A stretch of DNA of 37,467 nt, taken from NCBI GenBank assembly GCA_016212825.1, contig JACRDS010000008.1:1-37467 (forward strand), given 5' to 3'. This DNA comes from Elusimicrobiota bacterium (GTDB lineage: Bacteria; Elusimicrobiota; Elusimicrobia; UBA1565; UBA9628). The position numbers and the translations under genes are program-made. A model generated the notes under the pieces. It was not told the DNA's origin, searched no databases, and saw nothing but the letters and a program-made list of their open reading frames with translations. Positions 3,351-35,630 of the stretch are shown piece after piece (position 1 is the stretch's first letter; the number at the start of each line of letters is the position of its first letter).

Positions 3351-4269
3351 ACTTTGCGTAGCCGGCGGGGAGGAGGCCTTCCTTCTCGAGCTTCTCGGCG
3401 AGCCGGAGCAGATCGGCCTTCTGCTCGGACGTGAGCAAAGGCGAGGCGAGCAGAGCGTCCAACTGGGGCTTGGCGTCCGCGTGCCGCTCGCCCAAGGTAT
3501 GCAATGTGACGCGCAACCTCTGCGCGCCGCCGGGCCCGGGCGCGACGCCGAGGTCGAGCATCCAGGCGTCTGCGGAGACGCGCTTGACCGAGGCGTCCTG
3601 GAACGAGGCTCCGGCTGCCGAGGCCTTGCCCGCCTCCCAGTCGTAGCGCCAGCCGAGGTACTGGCTGTTGCGCGCGATCTCGACCTCCTGGGGGAGTTCC
3701 TTGATGACGAGGCTGAGCATGACGAGGTCGTCGGGGGAGATATTCGTGCCTTCCCGGAACTGCTCGGAGAACTGGGAGGAGCGCACCTGGTGTGCGAGGA
3801 CCTTGTCCATCTCGTCCCAGTCCGAGTCGATGTTCTGGAGTCCGGCGCCGACGTCGAGCCAGTCCTTGATGGTCAGGCCCTGGCGCAGCATGGACATGCC
3901 CAAAGAGAGCGTGAGGGGGTCGAATCCCGTGGCGCGCGAGATGGTGCCGAGAATCTGGGACTGCATGATCATGGCCGCGGCCATGGGGTTGTCCTCTCCG
4001 GGGGCCTCGGGCTCCACGGGCGCGGGGCCGGGAGCGGCGAGGGCCTGGACCATGGGGGCGGCCTGGAGCCCGACCTTCGGTGCGGGCGCGGCGAGGGTCG
4101 GGGCGGGGAGGATCGAGAGGAGGCCGGGCGTTCGCGGGCTGGAGAGGCCGGAGGTCAGGCGCGCGGGCGCGGTCACGCCGCTGTAGGGGGCGGCGAGTCT
4201 GGGGATGGCGCGGACCTGGGCCGAGGCCGCGGACGGCATGAGAGCGGCCAGGACGGCGAGTCTGAACAT
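3340..4269 (-). CDS. Secreted protein of unknown function, Ala/Pro-rich N-terminus
   Basis: 309 residues. A signal peptide (about residues 1-18, ending SAASA) is followed by roughly 75 residues rich in Ala, Pro, Leu and Gly that look like an unstructured linker. A predicted folded part begins near residue 95 (NPMAAAMIMQSQ) and ends with a Leu/Glu/Lys-rich helix. I recognise no family. The start is fixed by a perfect TATAAT box ending 6 bases before the ATG, so the mRNA is probably leaderless. Signal-plus-linker architecture is shared with the protein at 11526. The gene is divergent from the YcaQ-type gene. Confidence 0.75.
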   Translation of the reverse strand: MFRLAVLAALMPSAASAQVRAIPRLAAPYSGVTAPARLTSGLSSPRTPGLLSILPAPTLAAPAPKVGLQAAPMVQALAAPGPAPVEPEAPGEDNPMAAAMIMQSQILGTISRATGFDPLTLSLGMSMLRQGLTIKDWLDVGAGLQNIDSDWDEMDKVLAHQVRSSQFSEQFREGTNISPDDLVMLSLVIKELPQEVEIARNSQYLGWRYDWEAGKASAAGASFQDASVKRVSADAWMLDLGVAPGPGGAQRLRVTLHTLGERHADAKPQLDALLASPLLTSEQKADLLRLAEKLEKEGLLPAGYAKSRA

Positions 4270-4275
4270 GGAACG

Positions 4276-4281
4276 ATTATA
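4276..4281 (-). promoter_or_regulatory. Leaderless -10 box TATAAT
   Basis: Minus-strand TATAAT at 4281-4276, six bases (CGTTCC) before the ATG at 4269. No -35 match is visible. Transcription should start at or within a base of the start codon. Confidence 0.65.
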
Positions 4282-4348
4282 GCGAGGCTGCCGTCGCGGG
4301 CGTACGAGCCTTTGGGCCTAATCCCATCCCGGCAAATGACCCATTTGG

Positions 4349-4354
4349 TAGACT
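4349..4354 (+). promoter_or_regulatory. Leaderless -10 box TAGACT
   Basis: TGGTAGACT with the hexamer at 4349-4354, six bases before the GTG at 4361. No Shine-Dalgarno is present. Divergent from the TATAAT box at 4281-4276, so two leaderless promoters share about 80 bp. Confidence 0.6.
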
Positions 4355-4360
4355 GCTGAC

Positions 4361-5566
4361 GTGAGGCCTATCACGGTCGAGGCGGTACGCCGGCTGTTCC
4401 TGAAACGCCAGCATCTGGACCGGCCTCTGCAAGGCCCGCTCGACGCCCAGCGCCTGCGGTCCTTCGTGGAGGACGTAGGGGGCCTGCAGCTGGACTCCAT
4501 CAACGTGATCGAGCGGGCGCATTATCTTTCGGTCTGGAGCCGGTTCGGGGCCTACAAGAAAGAGGCGCTGGACGCCTTGGTCTACAAGGACCGGCTCCTC
4601 TACGAATACTGGGCGCATGCGGCCTGCCTGGTGCCGCGCGCTCACCTGCCGGCTTGGCGGCGGGCGATGCTGGACTATAAGATCAAGCACACGGGCTGGT
4701 CTTCGTGGCTGAAGAAGAACGACCGGGTGCTGCGCGAGGTGGAATCGGCGGTGGCGCGGCGGGGGCCCCTGACGGTGTCGGTGTTCAACGAGGGGCTCAG
4801 GCAGAAGAAGTCCTCGGGCTGGTGGGATTGGACTCCGGGAGACCACGCGCTCTACTATCTTTGGATGACGGGCAGGCTGGCGGTGCATTCTCGGCCGCAT
4901 TTCCACAAGTGCTATGACCTGTCGGAACGGGTGGCGGATCTTTCCGGGGTGGAGGCTCTGTCCGCGGAGGAGTTCCACAAATGGCATGTGCGCCAGAGCC
5001 TGCACGCGATGGGCGCGGCCACGGCCCAGGACCTGGGCGCCTACATGTCGTTCCCGCGCTTCTCCTTGAAGGACAGGCGCCGGGCTTTGCGGGGGATGCT
5101 GGACTCCGGCGAGGCGGCGGCTGTGTCTGTGAAGGGGCTTCCTGGAGAGCGGTTCGCGCTGCGGGAGGACCTTCCGGCGCTCTCCGAGCCTGGGCCGGCG
5201 CCGAGGGGGACGACCTTGCTGTGTCCGTTCGATTCGTTCATGTGGCACCGCAAGCGGGTCGCGGAGCTGTTCGGGTTCGACTATAAAATCGAGGTGTACA
5301 CGCCGGCGGCCAAGAGGCGCTTCGGCTACTATTGCCTGCCCATACTGCACGACGGGGAGCTGATCGGGCGGCTGGATGCGAAGAATTCGCGGCATGACAA
5401 GCGCCTGCTGGTGCCGGCCGTGCATCTCGAAGAGGGCTTCGCGCGGGCCAAGCGGGATGGAGCGCTGGCGGGGCTGGGCAAGGCGTTGAAGTCGCTGGCT
5501 GATTTCACGGGAGCCGCGGCGATCGAGGTCGGAAAAGTCCGGCCGGACGGATTCCATGTCCGCTGA
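4361..5566 (+). CDS. YcaQ-type winged-helix protein, putative DNA crosslink glycosylase
   Basis: 401 residues of the winged-helix family that includes YcaQ/AlkX (crosslink-repair glycosylase) and AlkZ. The N-terminal motif GLQLDSINVIERAH (Gln43-Leu-Asp-Ser46), the central FSTTD-like region replaced here by HFHKCYDL, and the C-terminal LLCPFDSFMWHRKR block match the family's typical order. The family unhooks DNA interstrand crosslinks by cleaving glycosidic bonds. The start is GTG, chosen because a TAGACT -10 box lies exactly 6 bases upstream. The last 11 bases overlap the next gene. Confidence 0.8.
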   Translation: MRPITVEAVRRLFLKRQHLDRPLQGPLDAQRLRSFVEDVGGLQLDSINVIERAHYLSVWSRFGAYKKEALDALVYKDRLLYEYWAHAACLVPRAHLPAWRRAMLDYKIKHTGWSSWLKKNDRVLREVESAVARRGPLTVSVFNEGLRQKKSSGWWDWTPGDHALYYLWMTGRLAVHSRPHFHKCYDLSERVADLSGVEALSAEEFHKWHVRQSLHAMGAATAQDLGAYMSFPRFSLKDRRRALRGMLDSGEAAAVSVKGLPGERFALREDLPALSEPGPAPRGTTLLCPFDSFMWHRKRVAELFGFDYKIEVYTPAAKRRFGYYCLPILHDGELIGRLDAKNSRHDKRLLVPAVHLEEGFARAKRDGALAGLGKALKSLADFTGAAAIEVGKVRPDGFHVR

Positions 5567-5936
5567 GGCCAAAGACGCGCTCCTGCGGGCCAAGCGGCTC
5601 GTCGCGGCGACTGGGAAGGACGCCAAAGGTTGGAAGAACCACCGCTGCGCGCAGGAGCTGCTTCAGGCGGCCTTGGACGAAGACCCCGGGAACACCGCCT
5701 TGTTGACCGCCCTGGGCGCCGTGCTCAGCGACCGCGGCTTCCATAAGAAGGCCGCCGAGGTGCTGGAAAAGGCCCGCAAGCTCGGCTCGCAGGATAGGAA
5801 TACTTACTACAATCTTGCCGTCGCCCTCATGAACCTGGAGCAGCACGACCGTGCCATGCGCTGGTTCAAGAAGGCCTCGGACTATCGCGTCGCGGACGGG
5901 ACGTGGGAGGCGTATTTCGACCCCCACGGCTATTGA
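5556..5936 (+). CDS. Small TPR protein
   Basis: 126-residue soluble protein with two to three tetratricopeptide repeats: ALDEDPGNTALLTALGAV, then AAEVLEKARKLG, then TYYNLAVALMNLEQHDRAM. No signal peptide. TPR folds bind partner proteins; the partner is unknown. The start lies inside the end of the upstream ycaQ-type gene (11-base overlap), so the two are probably translated from one mRNA. Confidence 0.72.
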   Translation: MSAEAKDALLRAKRLVAATGKDAKGWKNHRCAQELLQAALDEDPGNTALLTALGAVLSDRGFHKKAAEVLEKARKLGSQDRNTYYNLAVALMNLEQHDRAMRWFKKASDYRVADGTWEAYFDPHGY

Positions 5937-5954
5937 AAAGGACAAGGTGATGAG

Positions 5955-6479
5955 ATGAAGACGATCCTGGCGACTCTCCTGCTGGCCGCCGCCGGAGCCT
6001 CTGCCGGCCCGAAAGACCTCCCCTGCTCGTATCTCGGCAAGGACGGCGTCAAAGAACAGTCCGCCTGCCTCGAAGAGCAAGGCGCCGCACTCTCCGTCAA
6101 GAAGCAGCTCCTGGCGCGCCTCGCCTTCGACAGGGGCCTTGCCGCGGTCTGGAGCAAGGACACGGGCTGGATGTATATCGACAAAGCCGGCAAGGTCCTC
6201 ATCGCAGGCGTCGCGGCCATGGACAACGGCCCCGACGGCTTCCACGACGGCCTCGTCCGCTTCGAGCAGCAGGGCCGCTGCGGCTACGCCAACCGGCGCG
6301 GCAAGGCCGTCATCGCGCCCGCCTACGACGGCTGCCTCAATTTCATCAACGGCATCGCCCGCGCCTGCCTCAGGTGCAAGAACGTCTGCGCGGGCCAGGA
6401 CTGCGAGCACCGCACTCTCGCGGGCGGCGAATGGGTCTGCCTCGACACCACCGGCCGGCGCGTCGCCTGCATCCCATGA
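5955..6479 (+). CDS. Secreted WG-repeat protein
   Basis: 174 residues with a signal peptide (about residues 1-17, ending GASA). The mature part carries WG-type repeats: GWMYIDKAGKVLIAGV and then GRCGYANRRGKAVIAPAYD, which are short beta-hairpin units usually found in exported or surface proteins. Six to eight cysteines, several in pairs (RCKNVCAGQDCEH), suggest disulfides or metal binding. AAGG lies upstream of the ATG. It follows the TPR gene by 18 bases. The function is unknown. Confidence 0.72.
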   Translation: MKTILATLLLAAAGASAGPKDLPCSYLGKDGVKEQSACLEEQGAALSVKKQLLARLAFDRGLAAVWSKDTGWMYIDKAGKVLIAGVAAMDNGPDGFHDGLVRFEQQGRCGYANRRGKAVIAPAYDGCLNFINGIARACLRCKNVCAGQDCEHRTLAGGEWVCLDTTGRRVACIP

Positions 6480-6537
6480 CCAGCGCCCGGCCCGCTACAG
6501 CCTCGTCGAAATCACCAACCGGACTTGAAGACGGGGG

Positions 6538-7314
6538 CTACTTCGGCCTGCGGCGCGTGCCGCGGCTGGCCACCCGGTCGTAGATGCAGCCCGGGAGGTT
6601 CCTCACCACGTACTTCACCGCGGTCGAGAACGGGAAGGGGAAGTCCACCATCCTTCTGCCCGCCTTGATCCCCGCGATCATCTCGCGCACCGCGTCGCGC
6701 GGCTCCATCAGGAACGGCATGTCCTCGTCCTTCCACCTGGACGTCATCTCCGTGCGCACGAAGCCCGGGCAGACCGTCACCACCTGCACTCCCGTGCCCC
6801 GCAGGTCCACGCGCAGGGATTCCAGCAGGGCGATCGCCGCCGCTTTGCTCGAGCTGTAGGGCCCCGAGCGCGGCAGGCCGCGGAAGCCCGCGATGCTGGC
6901 CATGCCCACGATCGTCCCCGACTTCTCCTTGAGCATGCCCGGCAGCACCGCCTCGATCCAGTTCACCATGCCGAAGACATTGACCCCGTAGACGAAGCGG
7001 TAGTCGTCGGCCGCGAAGCCTTCCTTGGCGTCGCCCGACTTCGAGACCCCCGCGTTGAGCACCGCCCAATCCAGGCCCCCGAAGCGCTCCTGGATGTCCG
7101 CGTAGTGCGCCTTCACCACCGCCGGGTCCGCCACGTCGCCCGTCAGGGTCAGTACTCCGCCCGCGCCCACGTCCTTGGCCGCTTGGGCCAGCTCGGCCAG
7201 GCGCTCCACCCGCCGCCCCGTCAGGGCCAGCATGAAGCCTTCGTTGGCCAGCTGCAGGGCCAGCTCCCGGCCCAGGCCCGAGGTCGCGCCTGTGATCAGG
7301 ACCCGGTGGCTCAA
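6538..7314 (-). CDS. Short-chain dehydrogenase/reductase
   Basis: 258-residue NAD(P)-dependent oxidoreductase of the classical SDR family. The cofactor motif GATSGLG is at residues 9-15, NAG at 87-89, the catalytic Ser at about 140, and YSSSK with Tyr153 and Lys157. The C-terminal region has a basic, partly hydrophobic tail (VVRNLPGCIYDRVASR), as in membrane-associated SDRs acting on lipids or ketones. The substrate is unknown. I chose the TTG at 7314-7312 because it forms a TTGA overlap with the permease stop and leaves the Rossmann strand complete. Confidence 0.85.
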   Translation of the reverse strand: MSHRVLITGATSGLGRELALQLANEGFMLALTGRRVERLAELAQAAKDVGAGGVLTLTGDVADPAVVKAHYADIQERFGGLDWAVLNAGVSKSGDAKEGFAADDYRFVYGVNVFGMVNWIEAVLPGMLKEKSGTIVGMASIAGFRGLPRSGPYSSSKAAAIALLESLRVDLRGTGVQVVTVCPGFVRTEMTSRWKDEDMPFLMEPRDAVREMIAGIKAGRRMVDFPFPFSTAVKYVVRNLPGCIYDRVASRGTRRRPK

Positions 7315-8714
7315 GCGGACCTCTTGCGCAGGAAGTAGACCGGGATGCCCAGGAGCACGATGCCCAGTCCCGGCCAGGTGTAGGCCGGCTTGTAGATGAG
7401 CAGGTCCAGGCTGATGGCCGCGCAGGCCAGGATATAGAAGGCCGGCACCACCGGATAGCCCCAGGCCCGATACGGCCGCGGCGCGTCCGGCCGCTTTACG
7501 CGCAGGACGAATATGCCCGCCACGGTCATGCCGTAGAAGACCAAGGTCGCCACGACCACGTAGTCCAGCAGGTCCCCGTAGGCCCCGGAGAGGCAGAGCA
7601 GTCCCGCCCAGACGCCCTGCAGGACCAGGGCCGCTCCCGGCACCGCGTTCTTGTTCAAGGTCCCGATCCTCTCGAAGAACAGTCCGTGCTGGGACATGGC
7701 GTAGTAGACCCGAGCGCCGGAGAGGATCAGCCCGTTGTTGCAGCCGAAGGTCGAGACCATGATCAGCGCGGCCATGAGCAGGCCGCCTCCGTCGCCGAAG
7801 AGCGCGGAGAGCGCGGCGCTGGCCACCCGGTCGCGCGGCGCGGCCTGGATGGCGTCCATGGGCAGCACCGCCAGGTAGGTCACGTTGGCCAGGATGTAGA
7901 GCAAGGACACCAAGGCCGTGCCCATGGCCAAGGAGAGCGCGATGTCGCGCTCCGGCCGGCGCACCTCGCCGGCCGTGTAGGTGATGTTCTCCCAGGCCAC
8001 GGCCGAGAACAGCGAGCCCACCATGGCCACGCCCACGGCGGCCCAGATCTTGGCGCCCGCGAGAGGCTCCGTGGCCTCTCCATGCCGCCAGACGGCCTGC
8101 CAGGCGGACCGCCAGTTCTCGTTCCAGGCCGAGCCATGGTTCAGCGCGTAGAAGACCAGCAGGGCCAGCCCGACCAAGGAGGCGATCTTCGTCACCGTGA
8201 AGATGTTCTGCACGATCTTGCCCAGCTTGAGGCCCCGGAGATTGAGCCAGGTCAGGAAAGCGATGACCGCGATGGCCAGCAGCTGCGCCGCCGAGACGTG
8301 GAAGCGCCCGGCCGCGAAGAGGATGTGCTGCTCCGAGAACCATGGAAAGAGCACTCCCGTGTACTTGGCGAAAGCCACCGCCACGGCGGCGATGGTGCCG
8401 GTCTGGATGACCAAAAAGAGCGTCCAGCCGTAGAGGAAGCCCGCCAACGGGCCGTAGGCTTCGCGCAGGTACACGTACTGCCCGCCCGCCTTCGGGATCA
8501 TTCCCGCCAGCTCGCCGTAGCTCACGGCCGCGGTTACCGTGATGATCCCGGTGATGAGCCAGACCAGCAGCAGCCAGCCCGCGCCGCCCACGGTGCGCGC
8601 GATGTCGGCGCTGACGATGAAGATGCCCGAGCCGATCATGGAGCCGGCCACGATCATGGTCGAGTCGAAAAGGCCCAGTTCGCGCTTAAGTCCGGTCTCC
8701 GGAGCGTCGCTCAT
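7311..8714 (-). CDS. APC-family amino-acid permease
   Basis: 467-residue polytopic inner-membrane protein with about 12 transmembrane helices. The N-terminal motif STMIVAGSMIGSGIFIV is the helix-1 signature of amino acid-polyamine-organocation carriers, and PKAGGQYVYLREAYGPL is the helix-3 motif of the LAT/AdiC/GadC type. It would transport amino acids by antiport or proton symport; the substrate cannot be read from sequence. I prefer the ATG at 8714 over upstream starts because TAAGAT ends 7 bases before it. The downstream SDR gene is translationally coupled. Confidence 0.88.
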   Translation of the reverse strand: MSDAPETGLKRELGLFDSTMIVAGSMIGSGIFIVSADIARTVGGAGWLLLVWLITGIITVTAAVSYGELAGMIPKAGGQYVYLREAYGPLAGFLYGWTLFLVIQTGTIAAVAVAFAKYTGVLFPWFSEQHILFAAGRFHVSAAQLLAIAVIAFLTWLNLRGLKLGKIVQNIFTVTKIASLVGLALLVFYALNHGSAWNENWRSAWQAVWRHGEATEPLAGAKIWAAVGVAMVGSLFSAVAWENITYTAGEVRRPERDIALSLAMGTALVSLLYILANVTYLAVLPMDAIQAAPRDRVASAALSALFGDGGGLLMAALIMVSTFGCNNGLILSGARVYYAMSQHGLFFERIGTLNKNAVPGAALVLQGVWAGLLCLSGAYGDLLDYVVVATLVFYGMTVAGIFVLRVKRPDAPRPYRAWGYPVVPAFYILACAAISLDLLIYKPAYTWPGLGIVLLGIPVYFLRKRSA

Positions 8715-8721
8715 GGGGGGC

Positions 8722-8727
8722 ATCTTA
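8722..8727 (-). promoter_or_regulatory. Leaderless -10 box TAAGAT
   Basis: Minus-strand TAAGAT at 8727-8722, seven bases before the permease ATG at 8714. No ribosome binding site is present. Confidence 0.55.
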
Positions 8728-8771
8728 TCATAACCGGCTGGCTTCGTTCTCGAATGCCCCGCCCCGGATAC

Positions 8772-10318
<1,547 letters not shown>

Positions 10319-11513: not shown

Positions 11514-11519
11514 TATACT
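11514..11519 (+). promoter_or_regulatory. Leaderless -10 box TATACT
   Basis: TATACT at 11514-11519, six bases (AAAGAC) before the ATG at 11526. It fixes the start of the large secreted protein and argues against longer in-frame starts upstream. Confidence 0.65.
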
Positions 11520-13455: not shown

Positions 13456-14311
13456 AAAGGCGGCGCTTGGCCGCGTAGACCGTGTTGGCCAGGACCACGG
13501 CCGTGGTCACTGGCCCCACTCCGCCCGGCACCGGAGTGATGTAGGCGGCTCTCTCGGCCGCGACCGCGTACTCCACGTCGCCCACCCAGGCTCCCGCGCG
13601 GCGGTTCATTCCCGCGTCGAGGACCACGGCGCCGGGCTTTATCCAGGCGCCCTTGATGAAATCCGCCCGGCCCAGCGCCGCCACCAGGATGTCGGCGCGC
13701 CGCACGTGCCCGGCCAGGTCCGCGGTCTTGGAGTGGCACAGCGTCACTGTGGCGTCGAGGGCGCTGAGGTAGTGCGCCGCGGGGCGGCCCAGGATCTCGG
13801 AGCGGCCCACCACCACGGCTTCCTTGCCCGCCGCGTGGCTGCCGGTTTCGTCGAACAGGGCGATCACGGCCGCCACGGTGCAGGGGGGGAAGGCGCCGCA
13901 GCCCGCGATCTCGGCAGCGGTCTTGGCCAGGAAGAAGCGGCCGTAGCTCAGCGGATTGACCCCCTCCACGTCCTTCGCCGGCGGGATGGCGCCGAAAATA
14001 TCGGCCGCGTCCCAGGCTTTGGGAAGGGGCTGCTCCAGGATGATGCCGTCCACGGAGGGGTCCTCTCCCAGACGGCGCAGCAGGCTGGCGGGTCCATCGG
14101 AGCATGGATAAGCCTGCGCCGCGAGCCCGGTCTCGGCCGCCGCCTTGAGCTTGGCCTTCAGGTAGGCCCCCGCGGAGGCGTCTGCGGAACAGGTGACGAT
14201 GGCCAGCTTGGGCGGCGCGCCGCGGGCCTGGCGGACCGCCGCGATGCCGGGCCCCAGGGCCGACCGGATGGTCTGCGCCACGGCTTTCCCATCCAGGATC
14301 TTCGCGCTCAT
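13454..14311 (-). CDS. folD: Bifunctional methylenetetrahydrofolate dehydrogenase/cyclohydrolase
   Basis: 285 residues, the standard FolD length. The enzyme interconverts 5,10-methylene-, 5,10-methenyl- and 10-formyl-tetrahydrofolate in cytosolic one-carbon metabolism. Visible motifs are GAYLKAKLKAA, where the family has YxxxK with a catalytic Lys, GIILEQPLPK in place of the usual QLPLP, the cofactor-site signature VVGRSEILGRPAAHYL, and PVPGGVGPVTTAVVLANT near the C-terminus. Its start overlaps the stop of the upstream ApbA_C gene (ATGA), so the two are co-translated. The 3' end meets the inverted repeat at 13408-13455. Confidence 0.93.
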   Translation of the reverse strand: MSAKILDGKAVAQTIRSALGPGIAAVRQARGAPPKLAIVTCSADASAGAYLKAKLKAAAETGLAAQAYPCSDGPASLLRRLGEDPSVDGIILEQPLPKAWDAADIFGAIPPAKDVEGVNPLSYGRFFLAKTAAEIAGCGAFPPCTVAAVIALFDETGSHAAGKEAVVVGRSEILGRPAAHYLSALDATVTLCHSKTADLAGHVRRADILVAALGRADFIKGAWIKPGAVVLDAGMNRRAGAWVGDVEYAVAAERAAYITPVPGGVGPVTTAVVLANTVYAAKRRL

Positions 14312-14712
14312 CGCCGCCGCTCCAAGCGCTCGAGCACCGCGGCGATGAGCCGCAGTCCCGGCGCCGGGGTCCCGGAGCGCCGCGCCGCAGCCAGCAGCGG
14401 GCCGAGCACGGCGTCGGCGCCGGTCCGGCGGCGCGCGCGCAGGGCGCGCTGCCAGGGATGGCGGCGATCCGGGGATCTCCGGCACCGCTTTGCTGCGATG
14501 GCCGCCGGGTCTTCAGAGACCCGCAGGCCGGCGCCCCTGGCCGCGGCCGCGGCTTCTCCCGCGACCGAGCGCAGCAGCCGGCGCAGGGCGGGGTCGCGGA
14601 CGAGCTCGCCGTCAGGCACGACCGCGAGGGCGGAGAGGCCTCCCGCGGCCGCCTCCGCGCACAGGGCGGACCAGTCGGCTCTCTTATCAGAGGAAGCAGG
14701 GCGGCGGGGCAT
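14308..14712 (-). CDS. Stand-alone ketopantoate reductase C-terminal (ApbA_C) domain
   Basis: 134 residues. The pattern matches only the C-terminal helical domain of ketopantoate reductases (PanE/ApbA). It has the LCAEAAAGGLSALAVVPDGE helix pair, a DPALRRLLRSVAGEA helix, and a closing segment around GTPAPGLRLIAAVLERLE, where PanE has GxxTPxN and ends. The N-terminal Rossmann NADPH domain is absent, and several usual catalytic or substrate positions are degraded (an HPWQRAL block replaces the SSMxQDL region). It has its own promoter (TAGAGT, 7 bases before the ATG) and an intact frame, and is coupled to folD, so it looks like a real gene. Function unknown. Confidence 0.7.
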   Translation of the reverse strand: MPRRPASSDKRADWSALCAEAAAGGLSALAVVPDGELVRDPALRRLLRSVAGEAAAAARGAGLRVSEDPAAIAAKRCRRSPDRRHPWQRALRARRRTGADAVLGPLLAAARRSGTPAPGLRLIAAVLERLERRR

Positions 14713-14719: not shown

Positions 14720-14749
14720 ACTCTACAAAAACAAGACCCCCGCCGCCAA
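14720..14749 (-). promoter_or_regulatory. Leaderless promoter inside a terminator hairpin
   Basis: Minus-strand TTGGCG (14749-14744), 18-base spacer, TAGAGT (14725-14720), then 7 bases to the ATG at 14712. The -35 sits in the apex of the terminator hairpin of the upstream gene, and the spacer contains its U-tract. Confidence 0.55.
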
Positions 14750-14763
14750 TGGCGACGGGGGTC
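14726..14763 (-). terminator. Intrinsic terminator of the small two-repeat protein gene
   Basis: On the minus strand, GACCCCCG pairs with CGGGGGTC and an inner GCC-rich stem, with one internal mismatch and a 3-base loop (14763-14735). TTGTTTTTG follows at 14734-14726. This is the clearest intrinsic terminator in the window. It lies 16 bases after the stop codon of the gene at 14780-15001. Confidence 0.8.
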
Positions 14764-14779
14764 GTTCGAAGGTCGACGC

Positions 14780-16511: not shown

Positions 16512-16540
16512 TTGTCAGGTCTTTATATATTTGTTATCGT
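16512..16540 (+). promoter_or_regulatory. Promoter of the rpsF cluster
   Basis: TTGTCA (16512-16517), 17-base spacer, TATCGT (16535-16540), then 9 bases to the rpsF ATG. The leader would be 0-3 bases, leaving no room for the S6:S18-binding RNA that controls rpsF operons elsewhere. Confidence 0.6.
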
Positions 16541-27399: not shown

Positions 27400-28943
27400 G
27401 CCGGCGTCTCTGGCTGGAGTGGCTGGGAGTCTTCCTGGCCTGCTGCGCCATGTGCGCGTTCTTCCAGTTCCAGTCGCCCTACCTTCCGGAGCCGGACGTC
27501 TATTTCCACATCAAGGCCGCGGCCCTGCTGCGCCAGCACGGGTTTTTCCGGGAGGGCTTCCCCTGGGCGCATCTCAGCATGTGGCGGGACGGCTACAGCG
27601 ATGGCAGTCCCCTCTATCATCTGTTGCTGATCCCCTTCACCTTCGGGGACCTGACCTCCGGCGCCAAGACGGCGGGAGTCCTCTTCTCCGGGCTCGCCTT
27701 CTCCAGCTTCTTCATGATCCTGACCCTCAACCGGGTGCCTCACCGGGTCTACTGGTTCTGGCTGCTCCTGGCGGGAGGGGGCTTCTTCTGGTGGCGCCTG
27801 CTGGATGTGCGGCCCCAGGTCCTGTCGGTCACGATCCTGATGTGGAGCTTGCACTTCCTCATCAACGGCCGGACCAGGGCTTTCGCCCTGCTCTGCTTCC
27901 TCTACCCCTTCGCCTACGTCGCCGCGTTCCTGCCCGTGGTCTTCGCCGCCATCCGGTGGGCCTATCTCAAGGCCGCGGAGGACCGCAGCGAGCATCGCAT
28001 ACTGCTCGCCGGCCTGGGGGCCTACGCCCTGGGCATGCTGCTGCATCCCTACTTCCCCAAGAACCTCCTGTTCTTCTACGTCCAGAACATCCTGGTGGTC
28101 TGGGCCGCGGTGAGCCAGAACATCGACCTCTCGCTGGGAGGGGAGATCTTCCCGCTGGACACGCGCCAGCTGCTTGCTGCCCACTTCCCGCTCCTCTTCC
28201 ATCTGGCCGGAACCCTCTTCGTGTTCATGCACCGCCGGCCGCCCCTCTCCCGGCGCACCTTGGTCCTGTTCCCGATCATGCTCCTCGTCGCGGGCATGGC
28301 CCTGATATCCAAGCGTTTCGTCGAATACGCCGTCCCGGTGGCGACCCTGTTCTGCGCCTTCGCGGGCAGCGACATCCTCGCCGGGTGGAGCGCGCCGGAC
28401 CCCTTCGCGAAGCCCCATCCTCGCGTCGCGCCCCTGGCCGTCGCTTGGCTGGCTTGCGTCGCGCTGGCGACCGGGTCGTGGGTGATGGTCGTGCGCGGCC
28501 AGTACGCCCGGCTGCGGCCGCCCGTCTTCGCGGGCCTGGCTCGCGAGCTGCGCGCCCGGGCGCCGGCCGGGGAGCTCATCTACACCTGCGACTGGGACGA
28601 GCCGCCGGAGCTGCTCTTCTTCAACGACCAGCACCGCTACCTGGTGATGATGGACCCCATGTTCATGTACTACCGGGACCCGAAGCTCTGGGGTGTCTGG
28701 GGGCGGGTCTCCAACGGGATCCTGAGCCCGGACGAGACCTACCGCGCCTTCCGGGAGCGCTTCGGGACCCGTTTCGGGGTCTGCGGCCGGAAGTTCGACG
28801 CCCTGCGCGCTCTGATCGGCGGCGACCGGCGCTACCGCATCCTCGCGGAGGACGAGGGGGGCTACGCCTTCGAGGTCCTTCCGGCCGCGGCTAAGGGACG
28901 GGGGCCGCGAGGAACCGCTTCGGGTCGACCGTCCTCCCGTTGA
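27396..28943 (+). CDS. Polytopic membrane protein, possibly glycosyltransferase-like
   Basis: 515 residues with about ten transmembrane helices and a soluble C-terminal part. The N-terminal loop LPEPDVYFHIKAAALL with an acidic Asp and a His resembles the first periplasmic loop of GT-C glycosyltransferases (dolichyl/undecaprenyl-phosphate sugar users), which keep an acidic motif there. The C-terminal region (LIYTCDWDEPPELLFF, RYLVMMDPMFMYY) also fits that class. No substrate can be named. The start is the TTG overlapping the ispDF stop. Its 3' end runs 53 bases into the convergent M23 gene. Confidence 0.68.
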   Translation: MSRRLWLEWLGVFLACCAMCAFFQFQSPYLPEPDVYFHIKAAALLRQHGFFREGFPWAHLSMWRDGYSDGSPLYHLLLIPFTFGDLTSGAKTAGVLFSGLAFSSFFMILTLNRVPHRVYWFWLLLAGGGFFWWRLLDVRPQVLSVTILMWSLHFLINGRTRAFALLCFLYPFAYVAAFLPVVFAAIRWAYLKAAEDRSEHRILLAGLGAYALGMLLHPYFPKNLLFFYVQNILVVWAAVSQNIDLSLGGEIFPLDTRQLLAAHFPLLFHLAGTLFVFMHRRPPLSRRTLVLFPIMLLVAGMALISKRFVEYAVPVATLFCAFAGSDILAGWSAPDPFAKPHPRVAPLAVAWLACVALATGSWVMVVRGQYARLRPPVFAGLARELRARAPAGELIYTCDWDEPPELLFFNDQHRYLVMMDPMFMYYRDPKLWGVWGRVSNGILSPDETYRAFRERFGTRFGVCGRKFDALRALIGGDRRYRILAEDEGGYAFEVLPAAAKGRGPRGTASGRPSSR

Positions 28944-29868
28944 ACCAGACCTCGTAGTGCACGTGGCTGCCCGTGGAGCGGCCCGTGCTGCCCATGGCCG
29001 CGATGACCTGGGCGCGCCCGACTTTCTCGCCTTCCTTCACCAGCAGGCGCGAGGCGTGGCCGTAGAGAGTGGCGTAGCCCAGGTCATGGCGCAGCAGGAC
29101 CAGGCGGCCGTAGCCTCCGCTCCAGCGCGCGCGCACGACCGTCCCCTCGGCCGTGGCGCGGATGGGGCTGCCCTTGCCCCCGGCGATGTCCACGCCGGGA
29201 TGGAACTCCCGGTCGCCGGACTCGTCGTCCCCGCGCAGCGGCGAGAGCCGGCGGCCGTAGCGGGAGGTCAGGCGCCCCGGAGCCGGCCAGCCGGCGGGCA
29301 TGGCCTTGAACAGGCGGCGGCGCCAGGCCAGGTGCGCGGCGATCTCCTGGCAGCTGGCGAGGCGCTCGCGGCTCATCCGTCCGATCTCCCGGATGTCCCG
29401 GCGCAGAGGGTCCGCGCCGGCCGCGGGAGAGGCCTGGAGATAGCTCTGCAGCAGGGAGCGGCGGTCGGCGGGGCCTCCGCCGCCCGACCCGGCGGGGCCG
29501 GCCGCGGCCAGTTGGGGCAGGGGCGCGCGGTCCGACCGGGGGAGGGGATGCGCAGCCGGCAGGGATTGGCGCAGTAGGACGCGGATCTCCTGGTCCGCCT
29601 CCCGGGCCGCCTCAAGCTCGGCGCGGGAGCGCGACATCTCGGCGCTGAGGGCCTCGAGCCGCGAGCGCAGGGAGAGGTTGTCGGCCTTGAGCATGCCGTA
29701 GCCGGCCAGGCGCAGGGCCAGGGCCAGGACCAGGAGGGACAGGGCGGTCCAGGCGGCCGCGGCCAGCACCAAGGAGCGCAGGCTCAGGCAGGCCTTCCAG
29801 GGGGAACTGCCCGCGGCCGAGGGGATGGCGAGCAAGGTGATGCGCTGGCGCCAGAGTCTGCGGCTCAC
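28891..29868 (-). CDS. M23-family metallopeptidase
   Basis: 325 residues. One N-terminal membrane helix (about residues 28-52) precedes a coiled region (SLRSRLEALSAEMSRSRAEL). The LytM/M23 domain occupies the last ~125 residues, with Zn ligands in HPGVDIAGG (near residues 221-225) and the catalytic HVH in GSHVHYEVW (near 302). All key residues are kept, so it is probably an active peptidoglycan endopeptidase in the periplasm. The start overlaps the stop of the eRF1-like gene (ATGA). The 3' end overlaps the convergent membrane protein gene. Confidence 0.88.
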   Translation of the reverse strand: MSRRLWRQRITLLAIPSAAGSSPWKACLSLRSLVLAAAAWTALSLLVLALALRLAGYGMLKADNLSLRSRLEALSAEMSRSRAELEAAREADQEIRVLLRQSLPAAHPLPRSDRAPLPQLAAAGPAGSGGGGPADRRSLLQSYLQASPAAGADPLRRDIREIGRMSRERLASCQEIAAHLAWRRRLFKAMPAGWPAPGRLTSRYGRRLSPLRGDDESGDREFHPGVDIAGGKGSPIRATAEGTVVRARWSGGYGRLVLLRHDLGYATLYGHASRLLVKEGEKVGRAQVIAAMGSTGRSTGSHVHYEVWFNGRTVDPKRFLAAPVP

Positions 29869-30992
29869 GGCTCCTCCGGGCCCGGCCTGGGGACCTCCCG
29901 GCGCGCGGTCTCGGGCAAGGACTGGTCCGCGGACGGGGCCGTCGGCTCCGCGGCCGCCTCGGAGAGCTCGGCGCCGATGTGCCCGAGATTGTCCAAAGGC
30001 GAGGGGAAGAGCAGGCGCACCACCTCGCAGTGGGCTTCGAAGGCGCGCTCGACCATCTCCTCCACGACGTTGAATACGGTCTCGGTCGTCCCGTGGCAGG
30101 CCGGGCAGCGCGGGAAGGAGACGGAGAGGTCGGCGCAGCGCGGGCAGAGGTGCCCCATCTTGGCGAAGCCGTCGCGCACCAGGAGCAGGCGCACCTGCCT
30201 CTGCCGCAGGGCCTGCAAGGTGCGCTCCAGCCCCAGGACCGCGGCCCTTCCGGAGCCGGCCAGGTCCAGGAGGCGGTGCGCCAGCACGCTCTCGCGCACC
30301 TTGCGGGCCTCGCTCTCGCAGGAGCTGATGCGCTCCAGGACCGCGGCCGCGGGGACGTCCGGGCCGAGGCTCTCATCCATGATGATGAGTTGCTGCAGCT
30401 CCGTGCGCAGGTGGGCGGCCAGGCGGTCGGTCTGCGCGGACGGGCCTCCCAGGACGATGCGGCTGAGACTCCGCGCGCGCGCCAGGCCGTCGACGGCCTC
30501 GGCCAGGGCGCGGCCCTGCGCCGCGCCCAGGCCGCGCAGTTCCAGGTCCAAGGCCTCGTGCTCCTTGACCTGGCCCATGAAGACCTCGAGGAAGCGGGTG
30601 CGGCTTTCGCCGGCGAGGACCACGCCGAAGCGCTGGTGTTGGTCCGCGACGGACAGCAGCGGCGCGAGGTAGGGCTTGTCCGCGATGCGCAGCACGGACT
30701 TGACCGTCTCCGGCAGGGGGCAGACCTGCCACAAGCCCAGACGCTTGCAGCTGAACACGGCCAGGCCCCGCCAGCCCTCGGGTTCGAAGCCCAGGCCCAC
30801 GAAGCTGTCGAGCCTCTTGAGGTCCTCCGAGACCTCGCTGAAGCGCGGGTCCTCAAGGGGGCACATGCGCAGGAGATTGGAGAAGGAGCGCACGTGCGTG
30901 CGGCGCTGGTCCACGGGCAGGTAGAGGCTGACGATGCCGGAGACCGGGGCCTGGAGCTTGATGAGATCGCTGAAGTCCGCTGAGGAGAGCAT
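29865..30992 (-). CDS. Bacterial eRF1-like (baeRF) protein
   Basis: 375 residues from the preferred ATG. The N-terminal part (VSGIVSLYLPVDQRR, LKRLDSFV), the middle part (GVVLAGESRTRFLEVFMG, ending near an IVLGGPS motif) and the C-terminal part with two CxxC pairs (LCPRC and RCPAC) match the three-domain layout of baeRF/Vms1-type proteins. Those relate to eukaryotic release factor 1 and may act on stalled ribosomes or tRNA; I see no GGQ motif. Longer starts (TTG at 31046, GTG codons) are possible. A minus-strand TATAAT lies about 109 bases upstream of this ATG. Confidence 0.65.
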   Translation of the reverse strand: MLSSADFSDLIKLQAPVSGIVSLYLPVDQRRTHVRSFSNLLRMCPLEDPRFSEVSEDLKRLDSFVGLGFEPEGWRGLAVFSCKRLGLWQVCPLPETVKSVLRIADKPYLAPLLSVADQHQRFGVVLAGESRTRFLEVFMGQVKEHEALDLELRGLGAAQGRALAEAVDGLARARSLSRIVLGGPSAQTDRLAAHLRTELQQLIIMDESLGPDVPAAAVLERISSCESEARKVRESVLAHRLLDLAGSGRAAVLGLERTLQALRQRQVRLLLVRDGFAKMGHLCPRCADLSVSFPRCPACHGTTETVFNVVEEMVERAFEAHCEVVRLLFPSPLDNLGHIGAELSEAAAEPTAPSADQSLPETARREVPRPGPEEP

Positions 30993-31100
30993 GGCGCGCA
31001 CCCGCTGGGGCACTAAAAGGATAAGGGCGATCACCCTGACATGCAACTGCGTTTCTGTCGGGCTGTGTCAGGAACCGTCAGTCAGGCACATGGCGGCGCT

Positions 31101-31106
31101 ATTATA
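31101..31106 (-). promoter_or_regulatory. -10 box TATAAT, probable promoter of the eRF1-like gene
   Basis: Minus-strand TATAAT at 31106-31101; the best -35 is a TGGACA about 19 bases upstream. The transcript would start near 31094 and carry a leader of about 100 bases with a seven-codon ORF starting at 31092. Confidence 0.45.
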
Positions 31107-31124
31107 GCTTTGTTATAGTCTGCG

Positions 31125-31220
31125 ATGTCCAGGCGACTCCCTCGGGGAATGGGGGAATGGTGTCAGGCTTTCACGAAGTTCATGCGTTTCCTCACTACCG
31201 TGAAGTTCGTGAAAGCCTGA
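31125..31220 (+). pseudogene. 31-codon ORF across the element, probable transposase start fused to its end
   Basis: ATG at 31125, five bases after TATAGT. It encodes 31 residues beginning MSRRLPRGMGEW and ending TVKFVKA with a TGA at 31218-31220. The second half is simply translation of the inverted repeat. It may be an accidental frame, or the remnant of a transposase N-terminus joined to the element end by deletion. Confidence 0.35.
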
Positions 31221-31246
31221 CACCGTATGGCACCATATGGTAGGGT
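31217..31246 (+). promoter_or_regulatory. Leaderless promoter of the M50-like protease
   Basis: CTGACA (31217-31222), 18-base spacer, TAGGGT (31241-31246), then 6 bases (CTGCCT) to the ATG at 31253. The -35 is the terminal sequence of the inverted repeat. The spacer is a tandem pair CACCGTATGG / CACCATATGG (31221-31240). Confidence 0.5.
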
Positions 31247-31252
31247 CTGCCT

Positions 31253-31939
31253 ATGCCCTGGAAGCGCCTGGCGGGACTGGCCGTGGTGTTGGCCGCTCTA
31301 TGGCTCCTTTGGAGGACTCCCGTTGTCTACCCCATCCGCATCCTGGTGACCTTCCTGCACGAGGGCAGCCACGGCTTGGCCGCCGTCCTGACGGGAGGGA
31401 GCATCGACCGGATCACGGTGGAAGCCGACGGCAGCGGGCTGTGCTTCACGCGGGGCGGCTGGCGCTGGGCCGTGCTGCCGGCTGGGTACCTGGGCTCCAT
31501 GTTCTGGGGCAGCGTCATCCTCATCCTCGCCTGCCGGACCCGCTTGGACAAGTACGTCGCTTCGGTCCTGGGCTGGGGGCTCATCGCCATCACCCTGCTC
31601 TATGTGCGCTCCTGGTTCGGATTCGGCAGCGGCCTGGCTCTAGGGCTCGTCCTGGCCTCGGCCGGTCGCTGGCTGCCCGAAGAGGTCAACGATTGGCTCC
31701 TGACCTGCATCGGTAGCGCCAGTTGCCTCTGCGCGATCTTCGACATCCGGGACCTGACCAGGGTGGCCGGCGAGACCGACGCGACCATGTTCTCCCGTGA
31801 GATCATCCCCCTGCCGCCCCTGGTCTGGACCGTGCTCTGGGGAGTCCTCGCCGTGGCCTGCCTGGCCGTCTCCCTGCGCATCGCCCTGGCGCCGGCCCGG
31901 GAGCGCCCGAGAGGGGCATTTGATAGAATGCCTGCATGA
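31253..31939 (+). CDS. M50B-like membrane metalloprotease
   Basis: 228-residue polytopic protein with about six helices. The zinc motif HEGSH (His36-Glu37-x-x-His40) lies in the second helix, and GGxxxxITVEADGSG follows, as in the M50B peptidases of the YwmC/stage IV-like class. It probably cleaves membrane proteins in the bilayer; the target is unknown. No PDZ domain is visible. The start is supported by a TAGGGT box 6 bases upstream. Its last four bases overlap the AsmA gene (ATGA). Confidence 0.75.
   Translation: MPWKRLAGLAVVLAALWLLWRTPVVYPIRILVTFLHEGSHGLAAVLTGGSIDRITVEADGSGLCFTRGGWRWAVLPAGYLGSMFWGSVILILACRTRLDKYVASVLGWGLIAITLLYVRSWFGFGSGLALGLVLASAGRWLPEEVNDWLLTCIGSASCLCAIFDIRDLTRVAGETDATMFSREIIPLPPLVWTVLWGVLAVACLAVSLRIALAPARERPRGAFDRMPA
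31924..31929 (+). promoter_or_regulatory. Leaderless -10 box TAGAAT inside the upstream gene
   Basis: TAGAAT at 31924-31929, six bases before the AsmA ATG at 31936, within the last codons of the protease gene. The AsmA gene could be read both by coupling and from its own leaderless transcript. Confidence 0.5.
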
Positions 31940-33555
31940 GCCATCCCATGCCCACCTTCTACAAGCTCCTTCTGGGCGCCGCCGTGGCGGCCGCGGCCGG
32001 CGCTGCGGCGCTGACCATCGCGCTCAAGGTCTGGCTGCCGCCGGAGAAGGTCCGCCAACTGATCGTGGAGCAGGCCGGCAAGACTCTGCACCGCGAGGTG
32101 CGGCTCAAGTCCGTGGACCTCGGGGCTATCAAGGGATTGGTGGTGGAGGGGCTGGAGGTCTCGGAGAAGCCGGATTTCAAGGCCGGGACCTTCGCGGGCG
32201 TGGAGACCTTCCGCTTCCGCATCCGCCTGCTGCCGCTGCTGCGCAAGAAGGTGGTCATCGACGAGATCACCGTGGCAGGTCCGAGCCTGGCCGTGGTCCA
32301 GCTCAAGCCCGGCGTCTTCAACTTCTCGGACTTGCTCGCGGCGGGCAAGGCGCCCGAGGACAAGCCCGCGGCCGCCTCGACCAGGATCTCTCTGCCCTTC
32401 ACCCTGCAGGCCTCGGAAGTCGTTCTTAAGGAAGGACGCATCACCTATCAGGACAAGGTCTCGGGAGCGCGGTGGCGCGTCGCAGAGCTCCAGGGCGTCA
32501 TCAAGGACCTGAGCCTGGCCAAGCCTTTCGGCGTGGCCGCGGGACTGCAGGCCGAGCAGGTCGCGCCGGGCAGCCTCAAGGCCAAGCTCGATTTCGACGG
32601 CCAGGTGGACCTTTCCTGGATGTCCGCCGGGAAGCTGTCGCTCGACATCAAGAAGCTCTCCGCGGACCTCTCCGGCCTCGCCCTGACGCTTGCCGGTCCG
32701 GTGCAGCTCGACGGCGACACGCTCAAGGCCCAGGATCTGAAGGGGAAGCTTGGCAGCGGCACGCTCTCCATCAAGGCCATGGTCCGGGACTTCAACAAGG
32801 CCCCGGACGCCCGGCTGGAGGCGTCGCTGAGCGAGCTCGACGCGGCCAAGCTCCTGGAGGTCAAGGATCTCGCCGCCGGACACCAGCCCGCGGCGGCGCG
32901 CAAGGGCGCGCCGTCCCCGAAGGCGAAGGCCGCGGCGACAGCCGTCCCCTCGCCGGAGGGGACCGCCCCACCCATGAAGACCAGCGGCACGGTCGCGGTG
33001 GGAAAGATCCTCTACCGCACCTTCAAAGCCGAGAAACTGGATATGGCCTGGGACCTCAAGGGCATCACCCCGGACCTGCGCGGACTCTCCGGTCTGGCCA
33101 AGCTCAGCGTGGGCGGCGGAACCTTCGAGTCCGAGGAGGGGGGCGGCGGGCGCTCCAAGCTCATGAAGGCCCTGCTCATCCCGCTGGCCGTGCTCAGGCA
33201 GATCGGGCAGTTGGGCTCCGCCCTGCGCGTGCTGCCGTCCTTCGACAAGCTCGCCTTCTCCGAGATCAAGGGCGACTACGTCTTCGCGCAAGGCCTCATG
33301 ACCATCAAGGATTTCCATATGAACAGCGCCGCGGCCAACGTGTCGGCCGGCGGGACCATCGACCTGCCCGCCCAGAAGCTCAATCTCCAGGTTTCCATCG
33401 CCCTGGCCGGCGTGGCCCCTATCGGAGTGGACGTGGGGGGGACCTTCGACGAGCCCAAGCCCAGCCTGCGCCTAGGCAAGGCTCTGGCCGCTCCGGTCCA
33501 GAAGCTCGCCCAGCCCGCCGTGGACCTCTTGAAGGGACTGTTCAAGAAGAAATAG
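31936..33555 (+). CDS. AsmA-family protein
   Basis: 539 residues. One N-terminal membrane helix (about residues 11-29) anchors a long periplasmic part that is rich in beta-repeats (LDVKKLSADLSGLAL-type segments) and typical of AsmA-like proteins: EVRLKSVDLGAIKGLVVEGLEV near the start and an INLPAQKLNLQV-like segment near the end. Such proteins, related to bacterial lipid-transport bridges (VPS13-like), help outer-membrane assembly or lipid movement. A Pro/Ala linker lies near residues 315-345. An Mla system lies in the same window, which suggests shared envelope lipid work, but this is inference. Confidence 0.82.
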   Translation: MSHPMPTFYKLLLGAAVAAAAGAAALTIALKVWLPPEKVRQLIVEQAGKTLHREVRLKSVDLGAIKGLVVEGLEVSEKPDFKAGTFAGVETFRFRIRLLPLLRKKVVIDEITVAGPSLAVVQLKPGVFNFSDLLAAGKAPEDKPAAASTRISLPFTLQASEVVLKEGRITYQDKVSGARWRVAELQGVIKDLSLAKPFGVAAGLQAEQVAPGSLKAKLDFDGQVDLSWMSAGKLSLDIKKLSADLSGLALTLAGPVQLDGDTLKAQDLKGKLGSGTLSIKAMVRDFNKAPDARLEASLSELDAAKLLEVKDLAAGHQPAAARKGAPSPKAKAAATAVPSPEGTAPPMKTSGTVAVGKILYRTFKAEKLDMAWDLKGITPDLRGLSGLAKLSVGGGTFESEEGGGGRSKLMKALLIPLAVLRQIGQLGSALRVLPSFDKLAFSEIKGDYVFAQGLMTIKDFHMNSAAANVSAGGTIDLPAQKLNLQVSIALAGVAPIGVDVGGTFDEPKPSLRLGKALAAPVQKLAQPAVDLLKGLFKKK

Positions 33556-33570
33556 ACGGAGGGGAGCCAG

Positions 33571-34290
33571 ATGAAGATCGGATACCGGTTCGGCCTCAAG
33601 GACGGGCAGGAATGCCGCTTCGACCTCAGCCTCGATCCCAGAACCCTCAGCCTCGTCCCGCCCGCGGGCGAGCCTCCGGAGTGGGCCCGCCTGGGCAACA
33701 AGCAGTGCCCGAACTGCCCGCTCTCGGTCGAGCGCCACCCCTATTGCCCGGTGGCCCGCAACCTCGGCCCGGTCATCGCGGAGTTCGCGCGCCGCATCTC
33801 CTTCGAGGAGGCGGACATCTCGATACTGACCGAGAGCAGGGAGTACCGCCGCCGCGCGCCCCTGCAGAACGGCATCAGCAGCCTCATCGGCCTGATGATG
33901 GTCACCAGCGGCTGTCCGCACCTGGACAAGCTCCGGCCCATGGTCTACACGCACCTGCCCTTCTCCACCACCGAGGAGACCACCTATCGCGCCATCTCCA
34001 TGTACCTGTTGGCCCAGTACCTGCGCCGCCAGCGCGGCCTGGAGCCGGACTGGGACCTCTCGGGGCTGGTGCGCAGCTACGAAGCGATCAGTGTCGTGAA
34101 CAAGCACTTCGTCGAGAGGCTCAAGACCATCAAGCTGGAGGACGCCTCCCTCAACGCCGTCGTGAAGCTCGACTGCTTCGCCGCCATGACCGCCACCCTC
34201 ATCGCGGCCCAGTCCTTGGTGGGGGTGGAGAGCCTCTTCGCGTCCTATCTGGGGCAGCCCCAGGCGGGGGCCGGTCAGAGCAAGGCGTAG
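33571..34290 (+). CDS. Unknown protein with conserved-looking cysteine cluster
   Basis: 239 residues, no signal peptide and no membrane helix. Cys46 and Cys49 in QCPNCPL, Cys59 in YCPVA and Cys115 in SGCPH are each followed by Pro or in Cys-Pro pairs, like a ligand set for a metal or Fe-S cluster. Other blocks are ISILTESREYRRRAPLQNG and HLPFSTTEETTYRAIS. I recall a family of unknown function (DUF6901-like) with this pattern, but I am not certain. A strong ribosome site (GGAGGGGAG) lies before the ATG, 15 bases after the AsmA stop. The 3' end overlaps rodA by 16 bases. Confidence 0.72.
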   Translation: MKIGYRFGLKDGQECRFDLSLDPRTLSLVPPAGEPPEWARLGNKQCPNCPLSVERHPYCPVARNLGPVIAEFARRISFEEADISILTESREYRRRAPLQNGISSLIGLMMVTSGCPHLDKLRPMVYTHLPFSTTEETTYRAISMYLLAQYLRRQRGLEPDWDLSGLVRSYEAISVVNKHFVERLKTIKLEDASLNAVVKLDCFAAMTATLIAAQSLVGVESLFASYLGQPQAGAGQSKA

Positions 34291-35618
34291 CGCCGGGCGT
34301 AGATGTTGGCCACGATGCCCAGCGAGCACAGGGTCACGGCCAGGCTCGACCCGCCGTAGGAGACCAGCGGCAGCGGGATGCCGGCCACCGGGATGACGCC
34401 CAGGCACATCCCCATATTGAGGGCCAGGGCGAAGGTATACATGGAGACGAACCCGCAGCAGACCAAGTAGCCGTAGCTGTCCCGGGCCGCCCGGCCGGCC
34501 ACGACGATGCGCCAGAGCATCGCCAGGTAGAGCAGCAGGATGGTCATGGTCCCCAGGAAGCCCATCTCCTCGCCCACCACCGAATAGATGAAGTCGGTGT
34601 GACGCTCGGGCAGGAAGCCCAGTTGGGACTGGGTCCCCGAAAAGAGTCCCTTGCCCCAAAGCCCCCCGGAGCCGATGGCGATCTGTGACTGATGCACGTG
34701 GTAGGCAGCGCCCTGGATGTCCTCCTGGGGGGCGACGTAGGCCACGAAGCGGTTGCGCTGGTAGCCCTTGAGCTTGGCGTTGAGCGCGATGCCCGAGAGC
34801 AGCCCCGCGCTGAAGATGAGGGGGATCATAACGAAGGTGACGCCCCTCATCTGCAGGCGCATCATGGCGGCCAGGCGCCAGGCCAGCAGGCCCAGGACGG
34901 CGGAGGCCGCCATGATCGCGGCCGCGTGCCAGCCCAGGCGCGTGGCGCGCATGACGACCTCGGGCCAGGAGCCGGGGAGGGGGGCGGCGTAGTGGACCTG
35001 GCACCAGGTGATGAGCAGGGGGAAGCCTATGGCCACGGCTGCGTAGCCCGTGATGGCGCAAAGGTGGCGCAGGCTGGCCCCGGCGCAGAAGAGCATGCCC
35101 AGCAATATGGGGAAGAAGGAGAGGAAGGTCGCGAAATCGCCCTGCTTGATGATGAGCCCCAGGAAGGGGGCGATGATGGCGAAGCTGTAGAGCACGGTCT
35201 CCAGCTCCGCGGCGCGGCGCAGGCGCCGGGTCAGGAACGCGGCCAGCACCAGGATCGTGGCCGTGCGGGCCAGCTCTGAGGGCTGGAACGAGAAGATTCC
35301 CAGGTCGAGCCAGGCTCGGTGCCCCTTGTGGATAGAACCGAAGAACAGGACGCAGACCAGGAGGGCCAGGGCCAGGGCGTAGACGGCCTTGGCTTGTTCC
35401 TGGAAGACCTGGTAGTTGAAGTTCATGGTGAAGAGGAACATGGCCGTGCCCATGGCCAGGGCCAGGAGGTGCCTCTGGATGACCTGTCCGTAGTGGTGCA
35501 GGGGGCTGGCCGCCGAGAACACGGCCAGGCTGCCCACCAGGACCAGCCCGAAGACGGTCGCGATGAGGCCCCAGTCGAAGCGGCTCTTGCCGCCGCTCTC
35601 CGCGCGCAGTGCCATCAT
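34275..35618 (-). CDS. rodA: Rod-shape SEDS glycosyltransferase RodA
   Basis: 447 residues with about ten to twelve membrane helices. The block GHRAWLDLGIFSFQPSELARTA and the C-terminal AGIPLPLVSYGGSSL are SEDS signatures (RodA/FtsW). The sequence WLDLG with FSFQPSE fits RodA better than FtsW. It polymerises peptidoglycan from lipid II with a class B PBP, making the cell rod-shaped. The start at 35618 is supported by TAAGAT 6 bases upstream; a second ATG follows at once. No PBP or MreBCD is in the window. Confidence 0.92.
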   Translation of the reverse strand: MMALRAESGGKSRFDWGLIATVFGLVLVGSLAVFSAASPLHHYGQVIQRHLLALAMGTAMFLFTMNFNYQVFQEQAKAVYALALALLVCVLFFGSIHKGHRAWLDLGIFSFQPSELARTATILVLAAFLTRRLRRAAELETVLYSFAIIAPFLGLIIKQGDFATFLSFFPILLGMLFCAGASLRHLCAITGYAAVAIGFPLLITWCQVHYAAPLPGSWPEVVMRATRLGWHAAAIMAASAVLGLLAWRLAAMMRLQMRGVTFVMIPLIFSAGLLSGIALNAKLKGYQRNRFVAYVAPQEDIQGAAYHVHQSQIAIGSGGLWGKGLFSGTQSQLGFLPERHTDFIYSVVGEEMGFLGTMTILLLYLAMLWRIVVAGRAARDSYGYLVCCGFVSMYTFALALNMGMCLGVIPVAGIPLPLVSYGGSSLAVTLCSLGIVANIYARRYALL

Positions 35619-35624
35619 TGAGCC

Positions 35625-35630
35625 ATCTTA
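35625..35630 (-). promoter_or_regulatory. Leaderless -10 box TAAGAT
   Basis: Minus-strand TGGTAAGAT with the hexamer at 35630-35625, six bases (GGCTCA) before the rodA ATG. No ribosome site. Confidence 0.6.

Follow-up and report, generated by a model that had tools for sequence, protein, structure and literature searches.

Fixed −10 boxes before start codons point to leaderless expression in the class Elusimicrobia

Ten boxed starts in one Elusimicrobiota window

The window analysed here, a stretch of 37,467 nucleotides with a GC content of 68%, forms contig 10 of genome G000, which totals 3.56 Mb in 186 contigs and has an estimated completeness of 86%. The nearest named relatives of its nifS gene are found in the Elusimicrobia MAGs nzgw215 (84%) and UBA9639 (79%), which bears out the phylum suggested in the original prediction. 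The original prediction had listed ten starts with a TANNNT hexamer 6 or 7 nt upstream and an rpsF gene with a gap of 9; all ten boxes are present at exactly those gaps, as is TATCGT before rpsF. The putative −10 boxes, with the gap between box and start codon in nt, are as follows:

4276..4281, minus strand: TATAAT, gap 6, start 4269; TATAAT at gap 7 in the G002 orthologue (L261)
4349..4354, plus strand: TAGACT, gap 6, GTG start 4361 of an AlkZ-like glycosylase (Pfam)
8722..8727, minus strand: TAAGAT, gap 7, start 8714 of an amino acid permease; gap 7 also in G002, G004 and G005
9145..9150, plus strand: TAGAAT, gap 7, start 9158 of a NifS-like cysteine desulfurase
11514..11519, plus strand: TATACT, gap 6, start 11526; TATACT at gap 6 in G002
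14720..14725, minus strand: TAGAGT, gap 7, start 14712 of an ApbA_C-only protein; gap 7 in G002, G004, G005 and L088
16455..16460, minus strand: TATGCT, gap 7, start 16447 of a TPR protein
16535..16540, plus strand: TATCGT, gap 9, start 16550 of the rpsF-like gene
31241..31246, plus strand: TAGGGT, gap 6, start 31253 of an M50B-like peptidase
31924..31929, plus strand: TAGAAT, gap 6, start 31936 of an AsmA-like protein, lying in the 3′ end of the gene upstream
35625..35630, minus strand: TAAGAT, FtsW/RodA family, gap 6 to the first ATG (35618) and gap 9 to the second

The Shine-Dalgarno consensus used was AAGGAGGTGAT, and its longest matching word was sought within a 14-nt stretch (−17 to −4). 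The ten starts were said to be devoid of such sites, and indeed yielded words of 0 to 4 nt only, with 4 nt at 8714, 9158 and 31936. The accompanying claim that genes inside operons have overlaps or ribosome sites instead does not hold throughout, since one of the ten, 31936, overlaps the stop codon of the gene before it (31253-31939). The box of this start is kept at gap 6 in G001, G002, G004 and G006, three of which have no M50B neighbour within the 1.5 kb examined, which argues that it is a real promoter despite the overlap.

Among same-genus or near orthologues of the ten genes, read by eye, 20 of 30 comparisons show the box retained with a gap of 6 or 7. Partial hits that do not reach the start were excluded from this tally, as were nifS hits at or below 46% identity; these distant nifS homologues are mostly without the box. 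The individual starts contribute 1/1 (4269), 1/2 (4361), 3/3 (8714), 3/6 (9158), 1/1 (11526), 4/4 (14712), 3/3 (16447), 0/1 (31253), 4/4 (31936) and 0/5 (35618). At 4361 the TAGACT box, its gap of 6 and the GTG codon are all retained in G002, and the box is absent in G003 (58% identity), while at 8714 box and gap persist although the preceding sequence has almost wholly changed between orthologues. The gap before nifS (9158) is 7 in G002, G004 and G005, 10 in G006, 9 in G016 and 17 in G022, and that before the TPR gene (16447) is 7 in G004, 4 and 7 in G002 and 6 in L088. No gap 6/7 box precedes the sole orthologue of 31253 that was seen (G002), and the orthologues of ftsW begin at the second Met, with the box at gap 8 in G001 and gap 9 in G002, G004 and G005 and no box in G006. 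The rpsF gap is likewise 9 in G002, G004 and G008 and 10 in L088, and in the window TTGTCA (16512-16517) lies 17 bp upstream of the rpsF box. Over 194 start-equivalent orthologue pairs, conservation amounted to 16/46 at gap 6/7 against 0/34 at control offsets, the former figure deriving from 8 pairs, six of them nifS.

Two further features of the window were recorded. The 134-aa protein encoded at 14308-14712 (minus strand) consists of the ketopantoate reductase C-terminal domain (ApbA_C) alone and is conserved in relatives, and at 14720-14765 on the same strand a G+C-rich hairpin and T-run lead straight into the −10 box of its start, a layout also present in G002, G004, G005 and L088 that suggests the fusion of a terminator with a leaderless promoter. 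A terminator search upstream of the boxed starts of the gene set described below returned 0/59 at the thresholds used, the 14712 gene being absent from that set. An in-frame upstream ATG (16459) falls inside the 16447 box, forming a trap for start callers that favour the longest ORF.

Frequency and anatomy of the box in the sampled genome

Fifty-eight stretches of the genome were sampled, totalling 764,611 bases including the window (approximately 21% of the genome), of which 4,978 were N. Genes were called on these stretches with our own caller, which relies on codon usage alone and takes no account of any upstream signal, giving 630 genes, 607 of them with a start. This caller missed the small gene 14308-14712 and placed the starts of 8714 and 31936 elsewhere (8723 and 31948), and the counts are therefore not tuned to the finding. 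A start was considered unit-leading where the neighbouring gene was divergent or at least 50 nt separated it from the previous gene, and the TANNNT frequency at offsets −60 to −21 of these starts gave the expected box rate (3.1% per start).

The alignment by distance from the start that the original prediction had proposed yields the TANNNT peak at −12/−13. Boxes 6 or 7 nt upstream mark 59 of 269 unit-leading starts where approximately 8 are expected (binomial P ~1e-32), with 42 at offset −12 and 17 at −13, the mean between −60 and −18 being 4.2 per offset, and the share among divergent starts is 45/144. Operon-internal starts are boxed in only 7 of 256 cases, so that the signal is confined to unit-leading starts, 31936 being the exception. 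Control offsets gave 11/269 (−22/−23) and 13/269 (−32/−33), and internal ATGs approximately 0.3%; when any in-frame start within ten codons was allowed, 70/269 were boxed, and control offsets gave 14 to 18. Leaderless expression as a main mode, as had been put forward, is too strong a description, since the boxes cover approximately a fifth of the starts that lead a unit and, overall, 66 of approximately 600 called starts. Smaller excesses at −14/−15 (20) and −16/−17 (19) accompany the peak at unit-leading starts, and some leaders are thus probably a few bases long. A separate excess at −17 (gap 11; 15/269 against approximately 4 per offset) perhaps reflects 5-nt leaders.

When the 59 boxes were aligned, T was found at −23 in 49%, G at −2 in 64% and T at −3 in 53%, and positions 4 and 5 were A-rich. 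An extended −10 TG accompanies 21/59 boxed starts against 11/410 intragenic TANNNT (P 2e-13), and a TTG lies 22-24 nt before the box in 11/59 against 5/410 (P 1e-7). With a −10 extended by TG and, at 17-bp spacing, a weak TTG as −35, the boxed sites look like sigma70 promoters. A gap of 6 puts the start codon, ATG in 52 and GTG in seven of the boxed cases, where sigma70 transcription should begin, and a pyrimidine just before the first transcribed base is expected at a transcription start. Such a pyrimidine precedes 38/42 gap-6 starts against 125/210 unboxed starts in this genome, a significant difference, and 31/43 against 211/342 in its relatives, which is not significant.

Shine-Dalgarno words of at least 5 nt occur at 1/59 boxed, 43/210 unboxed unit-leading and 87/249 unboxed internal starts, over an interior background of 6.9%; words of at least 4 nt occur at 16/59 boxed starts. 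The contigs of this genome gave no 16S match; all 31 loci examined, including that of the same-genus G002, have an intact 16S 3′ end carrying CCTCC. Because this 16S end is intact and the unboxed starts use Shine-Dalgarno sites, the Shine-Dalgarno mode and the predicted translation of leaderless mRNAs would coexist.

In the same stretches the palindrome GGNCCWWWGGNCC has 11 copies, 11 intergenic and 0 coding, the corresponding numbers for the control GGNCCSSSGGNCC being 4 and 25. It lies at the following sites:

L006, 5160 and 5205
L009, 2327 and 3170
L066, 13018
L074, 7306
L077, 10526
L081, 10084 and 18680
L010
L059

In L077 a distance of 38 nt separates the copy from a divergent pair of boxed starts, and the palindrome is probably the operator of some regulator.

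Distribution over the class and the phylum

From each of thirteen relatives 40 to 100 kb were sampled, with gene calling started from the codon model of the first genome. Pooled, they gave boxes at 67/409 unit-leading starts (approximately 10.5 expected) and at 6/374 internal starts. Sampled stretches of the same-genus G006 yielded 1/36 (0.8 expected), and the whole-genome count of this member at gap 6 is 64 against 27 and 29 at control gaps. Low-GC Elusimicrobiota stretches (L255, L256, L259, L131, L137), in sets of 6 to 23 genes, gave 3/19 (2.0 expected), 0/7, 0/6 and 0/5.

A gene-free count of TANAAT followed by 6 nt and ATG was also made; it covered 149 whole genomes from the phylum, with class and family labels taken as supplied with the genomes and with gaps 17 and 18 as controls, gap 18 matching the codon phase of gap 6 and gap 17 being out of phase with it. 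The genome containing the window has 110 gap-6 sites against 10 at each control. Gap 6 exceeds both controls more than 1.5-fold in 48/71 genomes of the class Elusimicrobia and in 0/78 from the other classes of the phylum (over gap 17, 50/71 against 0/78; over gap 18, 61/71 against 3/78). Gap 7 separates less well, at 43/71 against 11/78 over gap 18 and 27/71 against 0/78 over gap 17. The ten class genomes that do not exceed gap 18 by this factor include both f7 genomes and three f5 genera. The gap 6/gap 17 ratio alone is not unique to Elusimicrobia, since it is also above 1.5 in 8 of 15 hand-picked genomes of other phyla, at 1 to 9 sites per Mb against 31 in the genome of the window.

A link to high GC content had been considered; family f4, whose sole sampled member (G061, 39-41% GC) is itself weak (1.20 and 1.64), shows a pooled gap 6/gap 18 excess of 2.0, and the trait is therefore not tied to high GC. 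On balance we favour the view that leaderless expression is ancient in the class as a whole, was kept from approximately 40% to 70% GC, was lost in a few genera and is absent in the other classes of the phylum.

Two genomes gave separate observations. The genome of L128 (G185, proteobacterium MAG SKS1.bin116) has 27 gap-6 sites and 0 at gap 17, and is likely a leaderless-rich genome outside Elusimicrobia. In G049, thirteen among the gap-18 matches listed are one repeat, TAAAATGTAGC followed by an A run and CGATG, on many contigs; this repeat is dispersed and also inflates the control count of that genome.

Probable leaderless transcripts and their significance

These data very probably mean that the boxes are −10 elements fixed with respect to the start codon, giving mRNAs with either no leader or one of a few bases. 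An ordinary sigma70-type −10 element would be so placed that transcription begins at the first base of the start codon, or nearly so, and the resulting mRNAs would lack a Shine-Dalgarno site. Translation would presumably follow the known leaderless route, in which a ribosome bearing initiator tRNA directly recognises the 5′-terminal start codon. The conserved gaps of 8 to 10 at ftsW and rpsF suggest that some leaders may be of 1-4 nt. The proposal of widespread leaderless mRNAs, with their predicted 5′ ends, thus stands as regards the fixed −10 boxes and their spread over the class, and becomes doubtful for 35618 and 31253 as strictly leaderless starts.

That the boxes are real promoters followed by ordinary leaders, the true start codons lying further downstream, is improbable. 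Starts were called by coding score alone, some differ from those first proposed (8723, 31948) and the ftsW orthologues do start at the second Met, as this explanation would have it; yet in-frame start codons at codons 2-41 downstream of boxed starts have a Shine-Dalgarno word in 1/103 cases (399/6099 for interior codons), and therefore offer no better start. Moreover, orthologue alignments that begin at residue 1 fix the starts of nifS and rpsF, and from one species to another the box stays at its distance from the called start. We consider it very improbable that the AT-rich box acts in translation (for instance as an S1 or open-structure element) and is no promoter: S1 binding could, according to the available portion of PMC5397173, explain an upstream AT or U bias of genes devoid of Shine-Dalgarno sites, but not readily the fixed spacing, the TANNNT form, the TG and TTG at promoter spacing, or the near absence of the box at operon-internal starts. 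Chance or a start-calling artefact of a high-GC genome, conceivable in that starts are predicted and the stretches contain N bases, can practically be dismissed given the P value above, the agreement of the gene-free counts, and the near-expected results of the same caller on loci of other phyla (3/161 with 1.3 expected; 8/220 with 8.7 expected).

The leaderless reading has precedents, and the mechanism is already known from Actinobacteria and Deinococcus-Thermus. In the accessible text of Zheng et al. 2011 (PMC3160421), TA-like signals mark leaderless genes, making up approximately 19% of all genes in Actinobacteria and 39% in Deinococcus-Thermus; those shares are of all genes, the comparable raw figure here being 66 of approximately 600 called starts. 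As in the genes described there, TANNNT approximately 12 bp before the start is read as a −10 element, in the TAnnnT form of high-GC genomes and, in some genomes, with TG. Within the same accessible text Elusimicrobia are not among the named groups, and 'Other Bacteria' (8/20) are not broken down. The original prediction had pointed to the signature in Deinococcus, and the available part of PMC12340547 does describe TANNNT 6-7 bp before the ORF in Deinococcus-Thermus, with promoter activity established experimentally, whereas ours is deduced from sequence. According to that part, the signature there covers nearly one-third of genes and occurs in all analysed species of the phylum, and here in one class of the phylum only; the commonest hexamer there is TACACT, while the boxes of the present genome prefer A at positions 4 and 5. 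Mycobacterium tuberculosis also has many leaderless genes with a TANNNT −10, as far as the accessible text of PMC3898074 goes, established by 5′-end sequencing as opposed to the DNA alone in the current study. A literature search combining Elusimicrobi/Elusimicrobium with leaderless, Shine-Dalgarno or transcription start site, most subscription papers lying outside it, found no report of this mode in the phylum, in agreement with the original prediction, nor does the accessible part of PMC10783764 report leaderless Elusimicrobia genes.

What appears to be new is the probable presence of this mechanism across the class Elusimicrobia, and its class-bound distribution is the most interesting part. 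Gene finders that expect a Shine-Dalgarno site will misplace starts here, as with 16459 for 16447. A class-wide case is added to the few bacterial groups with leaderless genes, the sister classes being without sign of it in the same counts and, if the trait is indeed old and class-wide, the phylum would be a natural comparison for the gain or loss of leaderless expression.
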